Shown: positions 2,596-52,039 of the stretch, in pieces
Numbering within the stretch: the first letter of the stretch is position 1
How the letters are laid out: each line of letters begins with the position of its first letter
Assembly (NCBI RefSeq): GCF_004117075.1
Contig: NZ_CP026721.1
Span: forward strand, 62,001 to 126,000
Direction of reading: 5' to 3'
From: Fervidobacterium changbaicum
Lineage (GTDB): Bacteria > Thermotogota > Thermotogae > Thermotogales > Fervidobacteriaceae
DNA: 64,000 bases
Notes under the pieces: generated by a model
Told to the model about the DNA's origin: nothing
Databases searched by the model: none
Seen by the model: the letters and a program-made list of their open reading frames with translations, nothing else
Translations under genes and position numbers: made by a program

Positions 2596-4347
2596 GTGAA
2601 AAAAGTAAGAATAGCATTGGCACAAATTAACACAACTGTTGGTGATGTAGAAGGCAACAAACAAAAGATTATCGAATTTATCAAGAGAGCTGCAGAGTAC
2701 GATTCAGATGTGCTGGTTTTTCCGGAAATGTCGATAACCGGCTATCCTCCGGAAGATTTGCTTTTCAAAACTCACTTCGTTCAGGACAACATAAAGGCGC
2801 TTGAGGAAATTGCCATGCACGTACCAAGATCACTTATCGCTGTTATTGGTTTTGTCGATAAGGATGGAGATATTTACAACGCAGCCGCGGTCGTGAACGA
2901 TGGCAAGATTGTGGCGAAATATCACAAGAATTATTTGCCAAACTACGGTGTTTTTGATGAAATGCGATACTTTCAAAAGGGCAATAGAGCGCTGGTAATC
3001 GAATTTGATAATGTGCGAATGGGTGTAACTATTTGCGAAGACATTTGGTATCCTGGTGGACCTGCACGAGCAGAAGCTCTTTACGCTGATGCGCAGATCT
3101 TAGTGAATCTTTCGGCCTCACCATACTATCAAGGGAAGCTTCTGTGGAGGGAGAAAATGCTTTCCACAAGAGCAAACGACAACCTTGCAGTCGTGGCTTA
3201 CGTAAACCTTGTCGGCGGTCAAGACGAGCTTGTCTTCGATGGTGCGAGTATTGTTCTAAATGAAGCTGGGCAACTTCTGGCTAGAGCAAAGCAATTTGAA
3301 GAAGATTTGCTCATAGTTGATGTGGATGTTGATAGTGTAGATAAAGCGCGTTTAAAAGATCCGAGAAGAAGGCAAGATAAACTTATGGTAACAAAAGAAG
3401 ATTTAGAGTGCATCGAGTTTGTCGGAATTCCATTTGAGAGAAAAGAAAAGAAGAACAAAATAACCAACCGAGTGGAACCTCTGCTTTCGGATGTCGCTGA
3501 AGTGTACAACGCACTGGTTGTTAGTTTACGAGACTATGCAACAAAGAACGGAATGAAGCAGGCTGTGATAGGACTTAGCGGTGGGATTGATAGTTCATTA
3601 GTAGCCTGCATTGCTGTTGACGCGTTAGGCAGGGAAAACGTGATTGGCGTTTCAATGCCCGGACCATTTTCGTCTGAACATAGCAAGGAAGACGCACAAT
3701 TACTTGCGGAAAATCTTGGAATAAGATTTTTGACAATCCCTATTGTCGATGCGTACAATACCTTATTGCGAACGTTAAAGCCTGTTTTTGGCGATTTACC
3801 GTTCGATACAACAGAAGAAAACTTACAGGCAAGGATACGTGGAGTTATACTTATGGCTCTCTCTAATAAATTCGGCTGGCTCGTCTTGACAACAGGCAAT
3901 AAGAGCGAAAGTGCAACAGGGTACTCCACACTGTACGGCGATACGGCAGGTGGGTACGCGGTAATCAAAGATTTGTACAAGACGATGGTTTACAAACTAA
4001 GCGAATATGTAAACCAGAAAGCTGGAAGAGAGATCATACCGCACAGGGTGTTCATAAAACCACCGAGTGCAGAATTGAGGGAAAATCAAACGGACCAAGA
4101 CAAATTGCCTCCTTACGAAGTCCTTGACCAAATATTGAAACTCTATGTCGAAGAAGATTGTAGCGTTGAAGAAATCGTGAAGCTCGGATTTGATGAAAAA
4201 ACAGTGAAAGAAGTTGCAAAAATGGTAAATATAAACGAATATAAACGAAGGCAAACACCACCAGGACCAAAGGTTACACAAAGAGCATTTGGAAAGGATA
4301 GGAGACTGCCAATAACAAATGGCTATAAAGAGCACAAAAAAAGCTAA
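2596..4347 (+). CDS. nadE: NAD+ synthetase, glutamine-hydrolysing
   Basis: A 583-residue two-domain enzyme making NAD+ from deamido-NAD+, ATP and glutamine, the last step of NAD biosynthesis. Residues 1-280 form the nitrilase-type glutaminase domain with the expected triad: E44 (VFPEMS), K111 (KYHKNYLPNYG) and C147 (VTICEDIWYPGG). Residues about 300-575 form the synthetase domain with the PP-loop SGGIDSS at 328-334. Length fits the bacterial glutamine-dependent class. The start is GTG, preceded by AGGAGGCGA about 7 bases upstream. It is followed by a strong intrinsic terminator. Confidence 0.97.
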   Translation: MKKVRIALAQINTTVGDVEGNKQKIIEFIKRAAEYDSDVLVFPEMSITGYPPEDLLFKTHFVQDNIKALEEIAMHVPRSLIAVIGFVDKDGDIYNAAAVVNDGKIVAKYHKNYLPNYGVFDEMRYFQKGNRALVIEFDNVRMGVTICEDIWYPGGPARAEALYADAQILVNLSASPYYQGKLLWREKMLSTRANDNLAVVAYVNLVGGQDELVFDGASIVLNEAGQLLARAKQFEEDLLIVDVDVDSVDKARLKDPRRRQDKLMVTKEDLECIEFVGIPFERKEKKNKITNRVEPLLSDVAEVYNALVVSLRDYATKNGMKQAVIGLSGGIDSSLVACIAVDALGRENVIGVSMPGPFSSEHSKEDAQLLAENLGIRFLTIPIVDAYNTLLRTLKPVFGDLPFDTTEENLQARIRGVILMALSNKFGWLVLTTGNKSESATGYSTLYGDTAGGYAVIKDLYKTMVYKLSEYVNQKAGREIIPHRVFIKPPSAELRENQTDQDKLPPYEVLDQILKLYVEEDCSVEEIVKLGFDEKTVKEVAKMVNINEYKRRQTPPGPKVTQRAFGKDRRLPITNGYKEHKKS

Positions 4348-4360
4348 GAAACTAATGTTA

Positions 4361-4387
4361 CCCCCACTTACAAAGGTGGGGGCTTTT
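4361..4387 (+). terminator. Rho-independent terminator after nadE
   Basis: CCCCCAC (4361-4367) pairs perfectly with GTGGGGG (4376-4382) around an 8-base loop, followed by CTTTTG. It lies 13 bases after the nadE stop and separates nadE from the convergent cation-efflux gene. Confidence 0.9.
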
Positions 4388-4440
4388 GTTAGTATCAAAA
4401 GAAATGAAGAATCCTATCGATGGTTTCGCTTTTGTGACAC

Positions 4441-5466
4441 TTAGTAACACGATATCAATCCTTGGCCTTTGCAACCATTATATTCGAATTGAATAGTTAC
4501 ATGGTTTATACCAACCTTTTCAAGTTCCGCTTTGATTTCAGTGTATACCTTCATTGTGTCGCTTACCTTAACGTCTTCCTTTAAATTCACATGAGCTTCA
4601 AAAAGGATGTTCTTCTCATCGAGCGCCCAAATGTGTAGATGGTGAATGTCTTTTATGACAGGGTTTTTCAATAGTGCGGAATTGATATTCTCTATATCAA
4701 TATTTACAGGCATACTTTCCATAAGAATCGATAATGAATCTCTCACGATTTCTATTCCCTCTTTAATCACGTATGCCGCAATTAAAATCGTCATTACTGA
4801 GTCCAGAAACTTGAAGTTGTATATCTTAATAAACACTGCACTCATCAAAACTGCGATAGAAGACAGAGAATCTATCAACATATGTAAGTACGCTGACTTT
4901 ATGTTAAGGCTCTCCTTCGACCATTTTCTTAGTATCAACATGCTAGTGAAATTAGCGATAAGTCCTATCAAGCCAACAACAAAAACAATACTAGTGTTTA
5001 TTGATACAGGCTTAAGAAGTCTCTTAATTGCTTCTATTATGAGTACTATACCTATTACCAACAGAGCAGTGGAGTTTAAGAACGCAGCTACTATATTGGC
5101 ACGCTTGTATCCAAAAGTCTTTTGGTAATTATTTGGCCGTTTCGAAATCCTTGCAGCTGCGTAAGAAATTATCAAAGACAGCGTGTCACCAAGGTTGTGG
5201 GCGGAGTCTGAGATCAGAGCCAAACTACCCGCAACGATACCACCTACAAACTCTGCCAATGTTATACCCAAATTTAATAGCACAACCATAGAGAAATGAT
5301 GAATATTAATTTCGCCGTTTGGGAGACCGTCCTTATGGGAATGTCCATGAGAATGTCTGTGTGAAGTAATTAGACCGTTTCTATTATGTTCCCTAAACTC
5401 TTCGTGGTTGTTTTGGCCACCGTGATTGTGTGTGATTATTTTCTTTGCACTATTTTTTAATGTCAT
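4441..5466 (-). CDS. CDF-family cation (zinc) efflux protein
   Basis: Cation diffusion facilitator (CzcD/ZitB type), an inner-membrane Me2+/H+ antiporter. A His-rich cytosolic N-terminus (several HxH repeats such as HRHSHGHSH) precedes six predicted membrane helices. The metal site is visible as SDSAHNLGD in helix 2 and HMLIDS in helix 5 (paired His/Asp residues), followed by a C-terminal metal-binding domain (about the last 85 residues). I place the start at the ATG at 5466 (AGGGG 10 bases upstream; 341 residues); an in-frame TTG 21 bases further upstream overlaps the repressor stop but has no ribosome binding site. It is downstream of an ArsR repressor with a CzrA-type zinc site, so zinc (or cobalt) is the likely substrate and regulation is likely by derepression. 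Confidence 0.93.
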   Translation of the reverse strand: MTLKNSAKKIITHNHGGQNNHEEFREHNRNGLITSHRHSHGHSHKDGLPNGEINIHHFSMVVLLNLGITLAEFVGGIVAGSLALISDSAHNLGDTLSLIISYAAARISKRPNNYQKTFGYKRANIVAAFLNSTALLVIGIVLIIEAIKRLLKPVSINTSIVFVVGLIGLIANFTSMLILRKWSKESLNIKSAYLHMLIDSLSSIAVLMSAVFIKIYNFKFLDSVMTILIAAYVIKEGIEIVRDSLSILMESMPVNIDIENINSALLKNPVIKDIHHLHIWALDEKNILFEAHVNLKEDVKVSDTMKVYTEIKAELEKVGINHVTIQFEYNGCKGQGLISCY

Positions 5467-47942: not shown

Positions 47943-50909
47943 GTGAAGAAAATTCTGATTTGGTCTGGGATAATAGCTTTAACAGTAATTGCTGTTATGC
48001 TAGTCCTTTATTTCTCTGGTAGAAGTGTATATACAAGATTTATTACCGCAATTGCACAGCTTGTGGAAAAGTCCACAAGCAAATCGCAAGGTATATCTAC
48101 TATCTCTAGTTTTGATGCGTACAAAAAACTTTCTGAACTGAGGTTTTCTGATACAACGAACAATGCTGTGTTTAAGTTAGATCTTGAAAATCCACTGGTC
48201 CTTGGAAACGATGAAACGACGACAATTCTTTTTTCTGTTCCTAACGATGGTGAGTATGCGGTAGTTATTAAATACAGGTATGATAACTTCACAACAAGTA
48301 GTGGAACTTTGGAGTTCGAAGTAGAGAAAAAGACCTACCTTGGAATTCTGGATAACTTTACTTATTATGACTTCAATGAAAAAGTTTACGATAGATACGG
48401 TAATGAAATAACACCAGAGCAAAAACCCTTTGAAGGAACGTACCTAACCTTTGTCAAAGACGCAAGTAGGATATCACACTATCCACTGCTTCTTAAACTT
48501 AACGCAGGGGAGAATCTAATTTCTGTAAAGAACACACGTTCACCGATAGTTATCGAAGGCATTTATTTGGTGGCTGGATCCTCTCTGTTTGTTAGTCAAC
48601 CGTACGCTGAGTATAGAAGTGTAAAAAGGCACGAAGGTAAAAGCGGTGAAGATATTATCGTGATAGAAGCTGAAGGGATTTCATTTAAGTCAGACTCGCT
48701 AATATCGTTAACCAATGAACAAACCGCTTTAGTAACGCCTTATGAAATTCTGAGAAGAAAGATAAACGTTATAGATGAAACTACTTTCAAACAGTCCGGG
48801 CAAGAGATTTTTTGGAGTTTCTACGTTGAGACTCCGGGTTATTACAAGATCGCGTTCAGATACAAGCAAGCAACGAACAGAGGTATTCCAATCTTTAGAA
48901 GGATTTACTTAGACGGCAAAGTTCCATTCAAAGAGTTCGTGGAATATCCATTTCCCTACACGGGCTATACTTGGAAAGATTATGTACTGAAAAATGAGCA
49001 AAATGAACCACTGGAAGTTTATCTCGACAAAGGGTTCCACATTCTCTCGATGGAAGTTACCACCGGAATGTACGAAGATACGATCAAGTTTCTACAAAAT
49101 AGTGTAAAGAAGTTACAAGAAATAGGTTTGGAATTGAGAAAGCTTGTTGGGAATAATTTAGACCCAAACAGGACATGGAACATTGAGAAATATATGCCAA
49201 ACGCAGTACCGGATCTAACGCACATATCTCAAAGCCTAAAAGCGGAACATGAAAAACTGGTCGGTATCGTCGGCAAACAGGGACTTCCATCGATTGCAGA
49301 TATGCTTGTCTGCGCTGGGATAATAGACAACATCCTACGAAAGCCTGAAAAATTGCCGTTCTACATCGACGTTCTTAGCGAAGGAGCTTCCTCCATTGCC
49401 CAAAGGCTTTCAGAACTTTCCATGAGACTAAAAGAACAACCGATGGGCATAGACAAGATTTATGTTTTTCAAGGAAGTCTCGATAGATTTGCCTACCCGA
49501 AATCAACATTCTTGATTACGGCCTATGAAGAACTACAAAAATTATGGCTTTCTCTTTTCAACAAGAACGAAGCTTATTCCATATATGAAAAGGTCGATGA
49601 GGCAAGCTTGAGAGTTTGGGTTAACAGACCAGTCCAATACGTTGAGACATTGCAGTATCTCACAGACAGTGATTTTACGAGAAAGACAGGCATTAAGGTT
49701 ATATTCTCCATAATGCCGAACGAGCAAAAGCTTGTCTTAGCAAGTGCTGCAAACACAGTACCTGACGTTGCAATGAGTATCAGCAACTGGATACCGTTTG
49801 AACTTGCAATAAGAAATGCTCTATTCCCGCTTTCATACTTCCCCGACTTCTTCACGTTCGCTGAAAAGAATATAAACGTGGAAACTCTGTTACCGATGGT
49901 TGTTGACGACAAAGTTTACGGTATAACCGAAACCCAGAACTTTTATGTTCTCTTCTACAGAAAAGACATTATCGAGAAACTCAGTATACCGATACCGGAT
50001 ACATGGGACGATGTAAAAAAGATTCTCCCAGAACTTCAAAGGCGTGGGATGAATTTCTCAATCCCCATGTGTGAACAGACAACAAAATACTTCAACACCA
50101 CCGGACCTTTCTTCTTCCAGAACAAAGCAAGACTTTACACAAAGGATGGTATGAAAACTGCTATAAACGAGGAAAATTCGGTAAAAGCTTTCGAATTAAT
50201 GACCGACCTTTTCGCTATTTATGGAATCCCAGAGCAGGTAGCAAGTTTCTACAACTCTTTCAGATACGGGCGGATTCCGATTGGCGTTGGTGATTTTGGC
50301 CTTTACGTAACGCTTTTGAATGCAGCGGATGAAATTTACGGACTTTGGGATATCGCACCCTCTCCAGGTGTTCGGACCGAAAACGGAGAAATTTTGAGAT
50401 ATCAAGTAGCTGGAGACAGAGCTATAGTTATATTTGCGAACTCCAATAAGAAGGAAAAGGCTTGGGAATTTATAAAGTGGTGGATGTCCAAAGATACACA
50501 AGTAAAATTCGCGAGGATGATGGTCAACAGGTACGGTCCAACGTATCTTTGGAATACTGCTAATATAGAGGCATTCAAAGAGCTCGATTTCATCGATGAA
50601 AAACACAAAAAGGTCATCCTTGAACAATGGAAGTGGATTCGAGAAGTACAGAGACACCCTGGCGGTTACATGGTAGAAAGGGAAGTAAGCAACATTTGGA
50701 ATAGTGTTGTTATCGAGGGTAAACCACTACGTACATCTATCGATAGGTCCGTAATATTGATAAACAGAGAATTAGAAAGGAAGCTCACAGAATTCGGTTA
50801 CATAATAAACGGCAAGAAGATCAAAGATTATAGGATGTACGACAGTATGGAAGAGTTCATAGAGACGGTAATAAATCGGGGTGAGGGTGAGTCAACCACC
50901 CACCACTGA
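47943..50909 (+). CDS. Membrane-anchored CBM-like/solute-binding fusion protein
   Basis: A 988-residue protein. An N-terminal membrane anchor (LIWSGIIALTVIAVMLVLYF) is followed by two beta-sandwich, CBM6/35-like regions (about 75-220 and 235-400), a helical linker (about 390-520), and a C-terminal extracellular solute-binding domain (about 535-960) with KVDEASLRVWVNRPVQYVET, YGITETQNFYVLFYRKDII and a typical hinge. It is far larger than normal binding proteins (about 420) and lacks a cleavable lipoprotein motif. It probably captures polysaccharide at the surface and feeds oligosaccharides to the permeases that follow. GTG start after GAGGGG. The last residues (GEGESTTHH) may come from an inserted structured element. 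Confidence 0.88.
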   Translation: MKKILIWSGIIALTVIAVMLVLYFSGRSVYTRFITAIAQLVEKSTSKSQGISTISSFDAYKKLSELRFSDTTNNAVFKLDLENPLVLGNDETTTILFSVPNDGEYAVVIKYRYDNFTTSSGTLEFEVEKKTYLGILDNFTYYDFNEKVYDRYGNEITPEQKPFEGTYLTFVKDASRISHYPLLLKLNAGENLISVKNTRSPIVIEGIYLVAGSSLFVSQPYAEYRSVKRHEGKSGEDIIVIEAEGISFKSDSLISLTNEQTALVTPYEILRRKINVIDETTFKQSGQEIFWSFYVETPGYYKIAFRYKQATNRGIPIFRRIYLDGKVPFKEFVEYPFPYTGYTWKDYVLKNEQNEPLEVYLDKGFHILSMEVTTGMYEDTIKFLQNSVKKLQEIGLELRKLVGNNLDPNRTWNIEKYMPNAVPDLTHISQSLKAEHEKLVGIVGKQGLPSIADMLVCAGIIDNILRKPEKLPFYIDVLSEGASSIAQRLSELSMRLKEQPMGIDKIYVFQGSLDRFAYPKSTFLITAYEELQKLWLSLFNKNEAYSIYEKVDEASLRVWVNRPVQYVETLQYLTDSDFTRKTGIKVIFSIMPNEQKLVLASAANTVPDVAMSISNWIPFELAIRNALFPLSYFPDFFTFAEKNINVETLLPMVVDDKVYGITETQNFYVLFYRKDIIEKLSIPIPDTWDDVKKILPELQRRGMNFSIPMCEQTTKYFNTTGPFFFQNKARLYTKDGMKTAINEENSVKAFELMTDLFAIYGIPEQVASFYNSFRYGRIPIGVGDFGLYVTLLNAADEIYGLWDIAPSPGVRTENGEILRYQVAGDRAIVIFANSNKKEKAWEFIKWWMSKDTQVKFARMMVNRYGPTYLWNTANIEAFKELDFIDEKHKKVILEQWKWIREVQRHPGGYMVEREVSNIWNSVVIEGKPLRTSIDRSVILINRELERKLTEFGYIINGKKIKDYRMYDSMEEFIETVINRGEGESTTHH

Positions 50910-51145
50910 AGTGGCGGGATTGAGAAAGCCCTGGTTGACTACCCTCAGCCAGGACCGAAAGGTTACCAGGCTACGTAATGAGTAGAGGATACTTTTCGAT
51001 TAGTAGTCTTAGCGGAGAAAAGATAAGCGACAGTGTAAAGTATACGAAGCTAAGGCTTATTGAGAGAAGTAAGACACTAATGTTAAAAGGAGGGTAGAGG
51101 CTGCTTGTTCGTGGCGAAGCCACGTGTGTCCGCAGCCAAGTTTCT
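50888..51145 (+). other. Structured, non-coding stretch, possible transposon end or RNA relic
   Basis: No gene fits here. AGTCAACCA (50890-50898) is complementary to TGGTTGACT (50932-50940); CCTGGTTGA can alternatively pair with TCAGCCAGG (50945-50953); an ACC-GAAA-GGT tetraloop hairpin follows; and GGCTGC (51099-51104), CGTGGC-GAA-GCCACG and GCAGCC (51132-51137) build a hairpin just before the permease ATG. The multi-hairpin layout recalls IS200/IS605-type right ends or TnpB-associated RNAs, but no tnpA/tnpB is present. This identity is a suggestion only. Confidence 0.4.
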
Positions 51146-52039
51146 ATGAAAATAAGCTCTAAAAAAGACCGAGGACACTGGCTTTTGTTGTCACCATACC
51201 TGGTTCTATTCATCATATTCATCGCACTACCTGTTGTGGTAGCTATATACCTGTCTTTTACCTACTTCAACGCCATCGAGAGGCCTAAATGGATAGGAAT
51301 ACAGAACTATATCACACTCTTAACACGAGACACACTCTTCATGCAAAAAGTTCTCCCGAATACAATTAAATACGCATTAATTGTTGGTGTTGGTGGGTAT
51401 GTCCTTTCATTTGTGTTAGCTTGGCTCGTTGCCCAGCTTACAAGAGTTCCTAGAACTATATTCGCTTTGATAATCTACTCTCCATCCCTCACCGCGGGTG
51501 TAACAATGTCGGTAATTTGGCGAGTGCTTTTTAACGGAGACCAACAGGGTTATCTGAATGCCCTCTTGCTCAAGCTCGGAATTATCGATAAACCCGTACA
51601 GTGGTTGCAGTCGCCACAGCATTTGATGGATATTATGATTCTCGTTTCCCTTTGGAGCAGTATGGGGGTAGGATTTTTGGCTATGCTTGCCGGTATCTTA
51701 AACGTTGACGAGCAACTTTACGAAGCTGCGTATATCGATGGTATAAAGAATCGCTTGCAAGAAATCATCTACGTGACAATACCCGCAATGAAACCCCAAA
51801 TGCTTTTTGGTGCTGTTATGTCAATAGTAAACACGTTCACATCGGCTGGCATCGGTGTGGCATTGTCCGGTTCGAATCCTACACCACAGTACGCTGGTCA
51901 ATTGATAGTCAACCATATAGAGGACTATGGATTCTTAAGATACGAAATGGGGTACGCGGCTGCACTTTCCGTTGTTCTACTCTTGATAATTTGGTTCTTT
52001 TCAAGAATTGCGTGGCGTTTGTTTGGCGAACGGTACTAG
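51146..52039 (+). CDS. ABC sugar permease, MalF-like, pair A
   Basis: A 297-residue CUT1 permease with six predicted helices; the EAA loop is [17 protein letters not shown]. The N-terminus [20 protein letters not shown] matches the MalF/LacF branch. The ATG at 51146 has no Shine-Dalgarno because structured DNA lies directly upstream; AAAAGGAGGG sits 45-60 bp earlier, six bases before an in-frame CTG (51101), which could be an alternative start adding 15 residues. Pairs with the next gene. Confidence 0.92.

Follow-up and report, generated by a model that had tools for sequence, protein, structure and literature searches.

The structured stretch that separates the gene of a membrane-anchored solute-binding protein from that of an ABC permease is very probably an ISC (IscB/HEARO) element, of the IS200/IS605 superfamily, that has undergone an internal deletion. 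The element inserted directly 5' of the ATGA shared by the stop of the binding-protein gene and the start of the permease gene, without target duplication, and about 1.25 kb then dropped out of its middle, with both ends left in place. The patterns found in related right ends also raise the possibility, which we regard as about evenly balanced, that the element carries a split ribosome-binding site that serves the permease.

The insert and its locus

The window (the whole stretch of DNA analysed, 64,000 nucleotides) is C1:62001-126000 of a 2.27-Mb genome whose nearest genomes belong to one genus and are Thermotogota-like. A sequence-only reading of this DNA had described a structured insert that interrupts an operon, and that description is borne out: the insert lies between the binding-protein and permease genes and folds 4.6 standard deviations better than its dinucleotide shuffles (z about -4.6; 0 of 200 shuffles were equal), with RNA and DNA parameters alike. 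The place given for the insert was also right, but its borders had been put at 50888-51145 and are exactly 50891-51145. A repeat finder run on the insert at its default setting listed no inverted repeats, an uninformative result because the hairpin arms are short or imperfect; they are revealed by folds and comparative data. A pattern scan of the insert found no intrinsic terminator and no outward promoter. The features of the locus are collected in Table 1.

Table 1. Features of the element and of the flanking genes (positions in the window; a slash marks the point of insertion)
Feature	Position	Strand	Basis or remark
Membrane-anchored solute-binding protein gene	47943-50909	+	Pfam SBP_bac_8/SBP_bac_1; last residues STTHH come from the element
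Native Shine-Dalgarno region of the permease, GGGGTGAGGGTGA	50878-50890	+	Cut off from the start codon; relatives have cgaggtgaaacaga/ATGA
Whole element, internally deleted ISC (IscB/HEARO) insertion, 255 bp (very probable)	50891-51145	+	HEARO position 1, empty sites, ends of full copies
Left end, 5' part of HEARO/omega-RNA	50891-50976	+	Closing stem GTCAACCA (50891-50898) with TGGTTGAC (50932-50939)
Deletion junction, placed within a few bases	50976-50977		Alignment to full copies
Relic of the iscB 3' end (contains GYFSISSLSGEKISDSVKYTKLRLIERSKTLM)	50977-51097	+	1-nt frameshift near the end; stop TAG at 51095-51097
AAAGGAGG, Shine-Dalgarno-like, proposed 5' half of a split ribosome-binding site of the permease	51086-51093	+	AAGGA.G invariant across 16 related right ends
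Right-end hairpin	51099-51137	+	Outer stem GGCTGC (51099-51104)/GCAGCC (51132-51137); inner stem around 51110-51124
ABC permease gene, 3' of the insertion	51146-52039	+	Pfam BPD_transp_1
ATGA target (predicted target-adjacent motif)	51146-51149	+	Permease start codon and former binding-protein stop

Identity of the element

When the genome was searched with the insert, its two halves were found apart at five places, in constant order and with about 1.3 kb between them. Full-length copies are 1495-1510 bp long and have the same architecture as the insert, with a HEARO/omega-RNA at the 5' side followed by iscB and then by the right-end hairpin. Their interior is occupied by one long gene, identified as iscB by its RRXRR (E 5e-69) and HNH domains, and the 5' part of five full copies scores 153-165 bits against the HEARO model (RF02033). 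The window copy was found with the same model by cmscan at 35.9 bits (E 8e-6), with model position 1 falling exactly at 50891; this is below the gathering score of 83 because the copy is truncated. No other significant Rfam match was found in the insert. The left end (about 86 nt) is 93-95% identical to five full copies over its first 60 nt, the right end (about 170 nt) matches the full copies at their 3' ends with 80-86% of nucleotides identical, and subterminal hairpins are found at both ends of the element.

What the window copy has lost is also clear from this comparison. The missing stretch of about 1.25 kb comprises two-thirds of the omega-RNA, on its 3' side, and roughly nine-tenths of the iscB gene. 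Only the first 80 or so of the 211 HEARO positions are truly present, the forced remainder of the alignment being iscB coding sequence, and the pseudoknot partner and later stem-loops of the omega-RNA are absent. Since the RRXRR and HNH domains are not in the window copy, in which only the 3' end of iscB is left, the copy is filed as an internally deleted derivative and not as an autonomous element. The 80-86% identity of the right end implies that the genome does not contain the copy from which it directly derives, and the deleted 255-bp form occurs only once there, which favours a deletion in place.

The sequence-only reading had compared the hairpin set to the right end or guide-RNA region of a TnpB element of the IS200/IS605 type. 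The superfamily, the insertion as such, the guide-RNA-like hairpins, the altered protein tail and the displaced Shine-Dalgarno sequence all stood up, but the family and the end were wrong. Nor is the insert a right end alone, since it represents an entire element whose two ends remain and whose middle is gone. The full copies encode IscB and no TnpB, which already refutes a TnpB element; moreover, their RNA is HEARO, at the left (5') end, and the target motif lies on the right, whereas tnpB elements have a 3' omega-RNA and a motif on the left. A TnpB element is therefore scarcely credible as the source of the insert.

Insertion site and consequences for the flanking genes

The two closest relatives (G002 and G004) have no insert at the orthologous junction, and their sequence there can be aligned gaplessly with the joined flanks of the insert (cgaggtgaaacaga/ATGAGAATAAG in the relatives versus cggggtgagggtga/ATGAAAATAAG in the window). 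Around the target, the empty site reads cga ggt gaa aca gaA TGA and the joined window reads cgg ggt gag ggt gaA TGA. These gapless empty sites fix the extent of the element, show that no target duplication was made, and identify the target as the ATGA stop/start overlap. For four further insertions in the genome, relatives show an exact empty site whose target is ATGA or GTGA; the empty site of copy 0646 is exact once the right border is shifted to GTGA. Insertion sites of the ATGA/GTGA kind are reportedly mentioned in a paper of 2009 on HEARO.

The empty junctions also bear on a second proposal of the sequence-only reading, an operon-internal riboregulator, considered here as a regulator or attenuator that arose at this site. 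Its strong structure and its position within an operon and beside a start codon would suit such a device, but the relatives examined have no such stretch at the orthologous junction, copies of it lie at unrelated loci, and it has neither an Rfam match to any regulator nor a terminator. A regulator evolved in place is thus very improbable, and the stretch is best taken as an inserted ISC element.

The insertion had effects on both sides. The binding protein of the relatives ends in NRGETE; in the window the native stop codon was lost and the native end ...NRGEGE was extended to ...NRGEGESTTHH, so the altered C-terminus noticed from the sequence alone is real. On the other side, the native Shine-Dalgarno region of the permease (anti-Shine-Dalgarno duplex of -9.3 kcal/mol) was displaced 255 nt away from the start codon. 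The earlier view that the permease was left without a Shine-Dalgarno sequence holds at the usual distance, but AAAGGAGG lies upstream of the right-end hairpin (see below). The permease gene is intact and its protein is 97% identical to orthologues (91-97% among the orthologues in relatives), and it is therefore probably still in use.

Other copies in the genome illustrate the variety of sites. A copy with a frameshifted iscB (L020, C1:1295439-1296952) lies at an ATGA stop/start overlap between the genes of an ABC ATPase and its membrane partner, and the ATPase has acquired the same STTHH tail as the binding protein of the window. A full copy (L017, C1:1399761-1401249) splits the gene of a PelG-like membrane protein whose joined flanks are in frame. 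At L016, a different insertion sequence lies beside the ISC copy on its right side (about 3000-4500 of the oriented locus) and encodes a transposase of about 500 amino acids that is IS1182-like by appearance only.

The target agrees with what has been established for related systems. HEARO is the guide RNA of IscB (PMC9755519), and the target-adjacent motif of the IsrB nickase was measured as NTGA (PMC9581776). An intact copy with such geometry would copy its guide from the left flank, which here is the region of the displaced Shine-Dalgarno sequence.

A candidate split ribosome-binding site at the right end

Right ends were compared across several genomes of the same order, Thermoanaerobacter and other Bacillota. 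The related right ends share an arrangement in which AAAGGAGG is followed by a covarying hairpin, then by 6-9 nt and the ATGA; in the window, 8 nt separate the end of the hairpin from the ATG of the permease. Among 19 right ends, picked for a recognisable motif, the linear distance from the Shine-Dalgarno-like sequence to the ATG is 52-64 nt, and with the hairpin excised it becomes 10-15 nt, with 11 of the 19 at exactly 10. The loop within the outer stem varies from 27 to 42 nt. All 19 have the outer stem, built from 13 different arm strings that are all self-complementary, and a stem of six or more was found in 2.8% of the shuffles used as a control. RNAalifold returned no structure from a MAFFT alignment of the right ends, because MAFFT leaves the 3' arms out of register; the search for arms in each sequence, with shuffles, was its replacement. 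At the level of sequence, these 19 right ends thus have the architecture of a split site, in which a hairpin would bring a Shine-Dalgarno sequence and an AUG near each other.

The motif itself stands out from its surroundings. In the window, AAAGGAGG is a stronger Shine-Dalgarno sequence than any other segment in the scanned remainder of the element, and in almost every element whose hairpin is well placed the motif likewise outranks that remainder in its match to the anti-Shine-Dalgarno sequence. It is retained where IscB is no longer encoded, namely in the window copy and four copies from other genomes (G001c, G016a, G016b and G016d). The exact motif is absent from 6 of 22 type-A right ends, and several elements from Bacillota are without any.

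Just over half of the insertions of this kind (12 of 22) lie just downstream of a strong Shine-Dalgarno sequence, versus 7.8% of the ATGA sites of the window that served as controls, a comparison in which insertions from one genome may share ancestry and surviving insertions are a biased sample. A weaker enrichment, 34% versus 11% of control windows, was seen for Shine-Dalgarno sequences to the left of the element at the 77 loci with enough flank (from Thermotogota, Bacillota and one Psychromonas).

We propose, at about even odds, that the element brings its own split site, in which AAAGGAGG, the hairpin, a gap of 8 nt and the ATG would replace the displaced Shine-Dalgarno sequence. Such a site would keep the permease translated, as in gene 25 of phage T4. 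A spacing of 13 nt across the split site is longer than the usual optimum.

It is quite possible, if somewhat doubtful, that the insert has no role and is just a decayed ISC remnant of the ordinary kind, that the permease is poorly translated or unneeded, and that AAAGGAGG is simply a run of iscB codons for Glu-Arg-Arg. This explanation contests the ribosome-binding site alone and not the identity of the element. The remnant is indeed frameshifted and truncated. The motif also encodes Glu-Arg-Arg at the C-terminus of IscB, where AGG is a common arginine codon (about a third of iscB arginine codons), and some of its conservation may reflect this coding role. Copies 1399, 1557 and 1083 lie in genes or in a terminator loop, where a ribosome-binding site is unneeded, and the geometry of the transposase may be what fixes the 6-8 nt from the hairpin to ATGA. 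Against an absence of any role, the permease is intact and closely similar to its orthologues, the effective spacing of 10-15 nt is held despite differing loop lengths and stem sequences, and the right end of a second, distant family rebuilds a Shine-Dalgarno sequence too (GGAG/GTGA).

The genome's second IscB is more distant (35% identity) and its family has a right end of its own. In this family GGAG or a comparable stretch of purines closes the element and GTGA follows, which makes the junction GGAGGTGA or close to it. In most cases the empty site of such a copy is a Shine-Dalgarno sequence in its own right (aaaggg/GTGAAGAAGAATGG and agaag/GTGAAAGCATG). Loci of the second family in the genome itself are L021, L022, L023, L024 and L130. 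A remnant of the same family (L131, C1:1083488-1083662, minus strand) apparently lies in the loop of a hairpin that resembles an intrinsic terminator (aaatcccctacc...ggtaggggattt).

Remaining capacity and mobility

The window remnant encodes no protein, cannot make IscB and is taken to be inert as a guide-nuclease system. Its omega-RNA is presumably dead, because everything past about model position 80 is missing. One can nevertheless imagine a live non-autonomous element, or a stand-alone omega-RNA that guides IscB made elsewhere in the genome. There are four intact iscB copies in the genome, IscB has been reported to work with stand-alone omega-RNAs (PMC9581776), and omega-RNA-only elements with a common scar at three loci occur in a related genus. 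Set against this, the part of HEARO that the window copy lacks includes the pseudoknot partner and later stem-loops, and the deleted form is found only once in the genome. A live guide RNA is accordingly quite unlikely here, and an inert remnant is the better description.

The three elements from the related genus (genome G016) have a complete omega-RNA and are 90-94% identical to one another, and the presence of one and the same deletion scar at three loci suggests that elements without iscB can multiply in trans. Omega-RNA-only elements of about 340 bp that lack iscB are found at L116, L117 and L119 in this genome, and also at L115 in G001; the HEARO sites in G016 are at C1:1317608, 639317 and 1159043.

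The window element has kept both ends and could in principle be moved in trans by a Y1 transposase. The sole intact Y1 transposase of the genome (L058, C1:2159697-2160056, minus strand) is found within an IS605 tnpA-tnpB element. The end hairpin of this IS605 element and the second ISC family have a GACTGAAGTC loop in common, a sequence likeness that hints at mobilisation of ISC elements in trans by that Y1 transposase.

Relation to known systems

The window remnant is a degenerate further example of the known ISC/IscB elements. Like the ISC/IscB-HEARO elements described before (RF02033; PMC9755519), which are usually without tnpA, the family has HEARO at the left, iscB with RRXRR and HNH, subterminal hairpins and insertion at NTGA; the window copy differs in its internal deletion to 255 bp. 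No study was found in the literature on a ribosome-binding site at the right end of ISC elements.

The IsrB system of Desulfovirgula thermocuniculi (PMC9581776) is similar in its NTGA motif (cut at TTGA/ATGA), its guide taken from the left flank and its 5' omega-RNA. It differs in that IsrB is without HNH, and in that the Shine-Dalgarno sequence found in the terminal hairpin of the omega-RNA serves IsrB itself and not a downstream host gene.

The closest parallel for the proposed split site comes from genes 25 and 38 of phage T4, where a hairpin between the Shine-Dalgarno sequence and the AUG shortens their spacing from 27 to 11 nt and from 22 to 5 nt, respectively (PMC3014915). The same arrangement is predicted here from sequence, with the difference that the candidate split site would travel with a mobile element and form anew each time the element inserts. 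IStrons (PMC4227781) offer another parallel, as IS605-related mobile elements with a device that eases the cost of insertion; however, IStrons splice out of the RNA, whereas in the present case translation would be restored.

Implications

In Thermotogales and some Bacillota, IscB elements are repeatedly found exactly between a ribosome-binding site and a start codon. The NTGA target would steer many ISC/IscB elements to start codons, stop/start overlaps or Shine-Dalgarno sequences, and two portable forms of ribosome-binding site may have arisen at the right ends, one consisting of AAAGGAGG and a bridging hairpin at ATGA and the other of a terminal GGAG that would rebuild GGAGGTGA at GTGA. We tentatively suggest, from these sequence arrangements, that ISC/IscB elements are translation-friendly, and that a portable ribosome-binding site, by which the host gene is translated again, may have evolved at their right ends.

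The window remnant is in itself one more decayed IscB element, and the portable ribosome-binding site of the family is the more general point. If confirmed, it would explain how IscB elements, transposons of the Cas9 ancestor, persist inside operons, it would provide natural split ribosome-binding sites outside of phage, and it would suggest why selection might favour the [A/G]TGA target.
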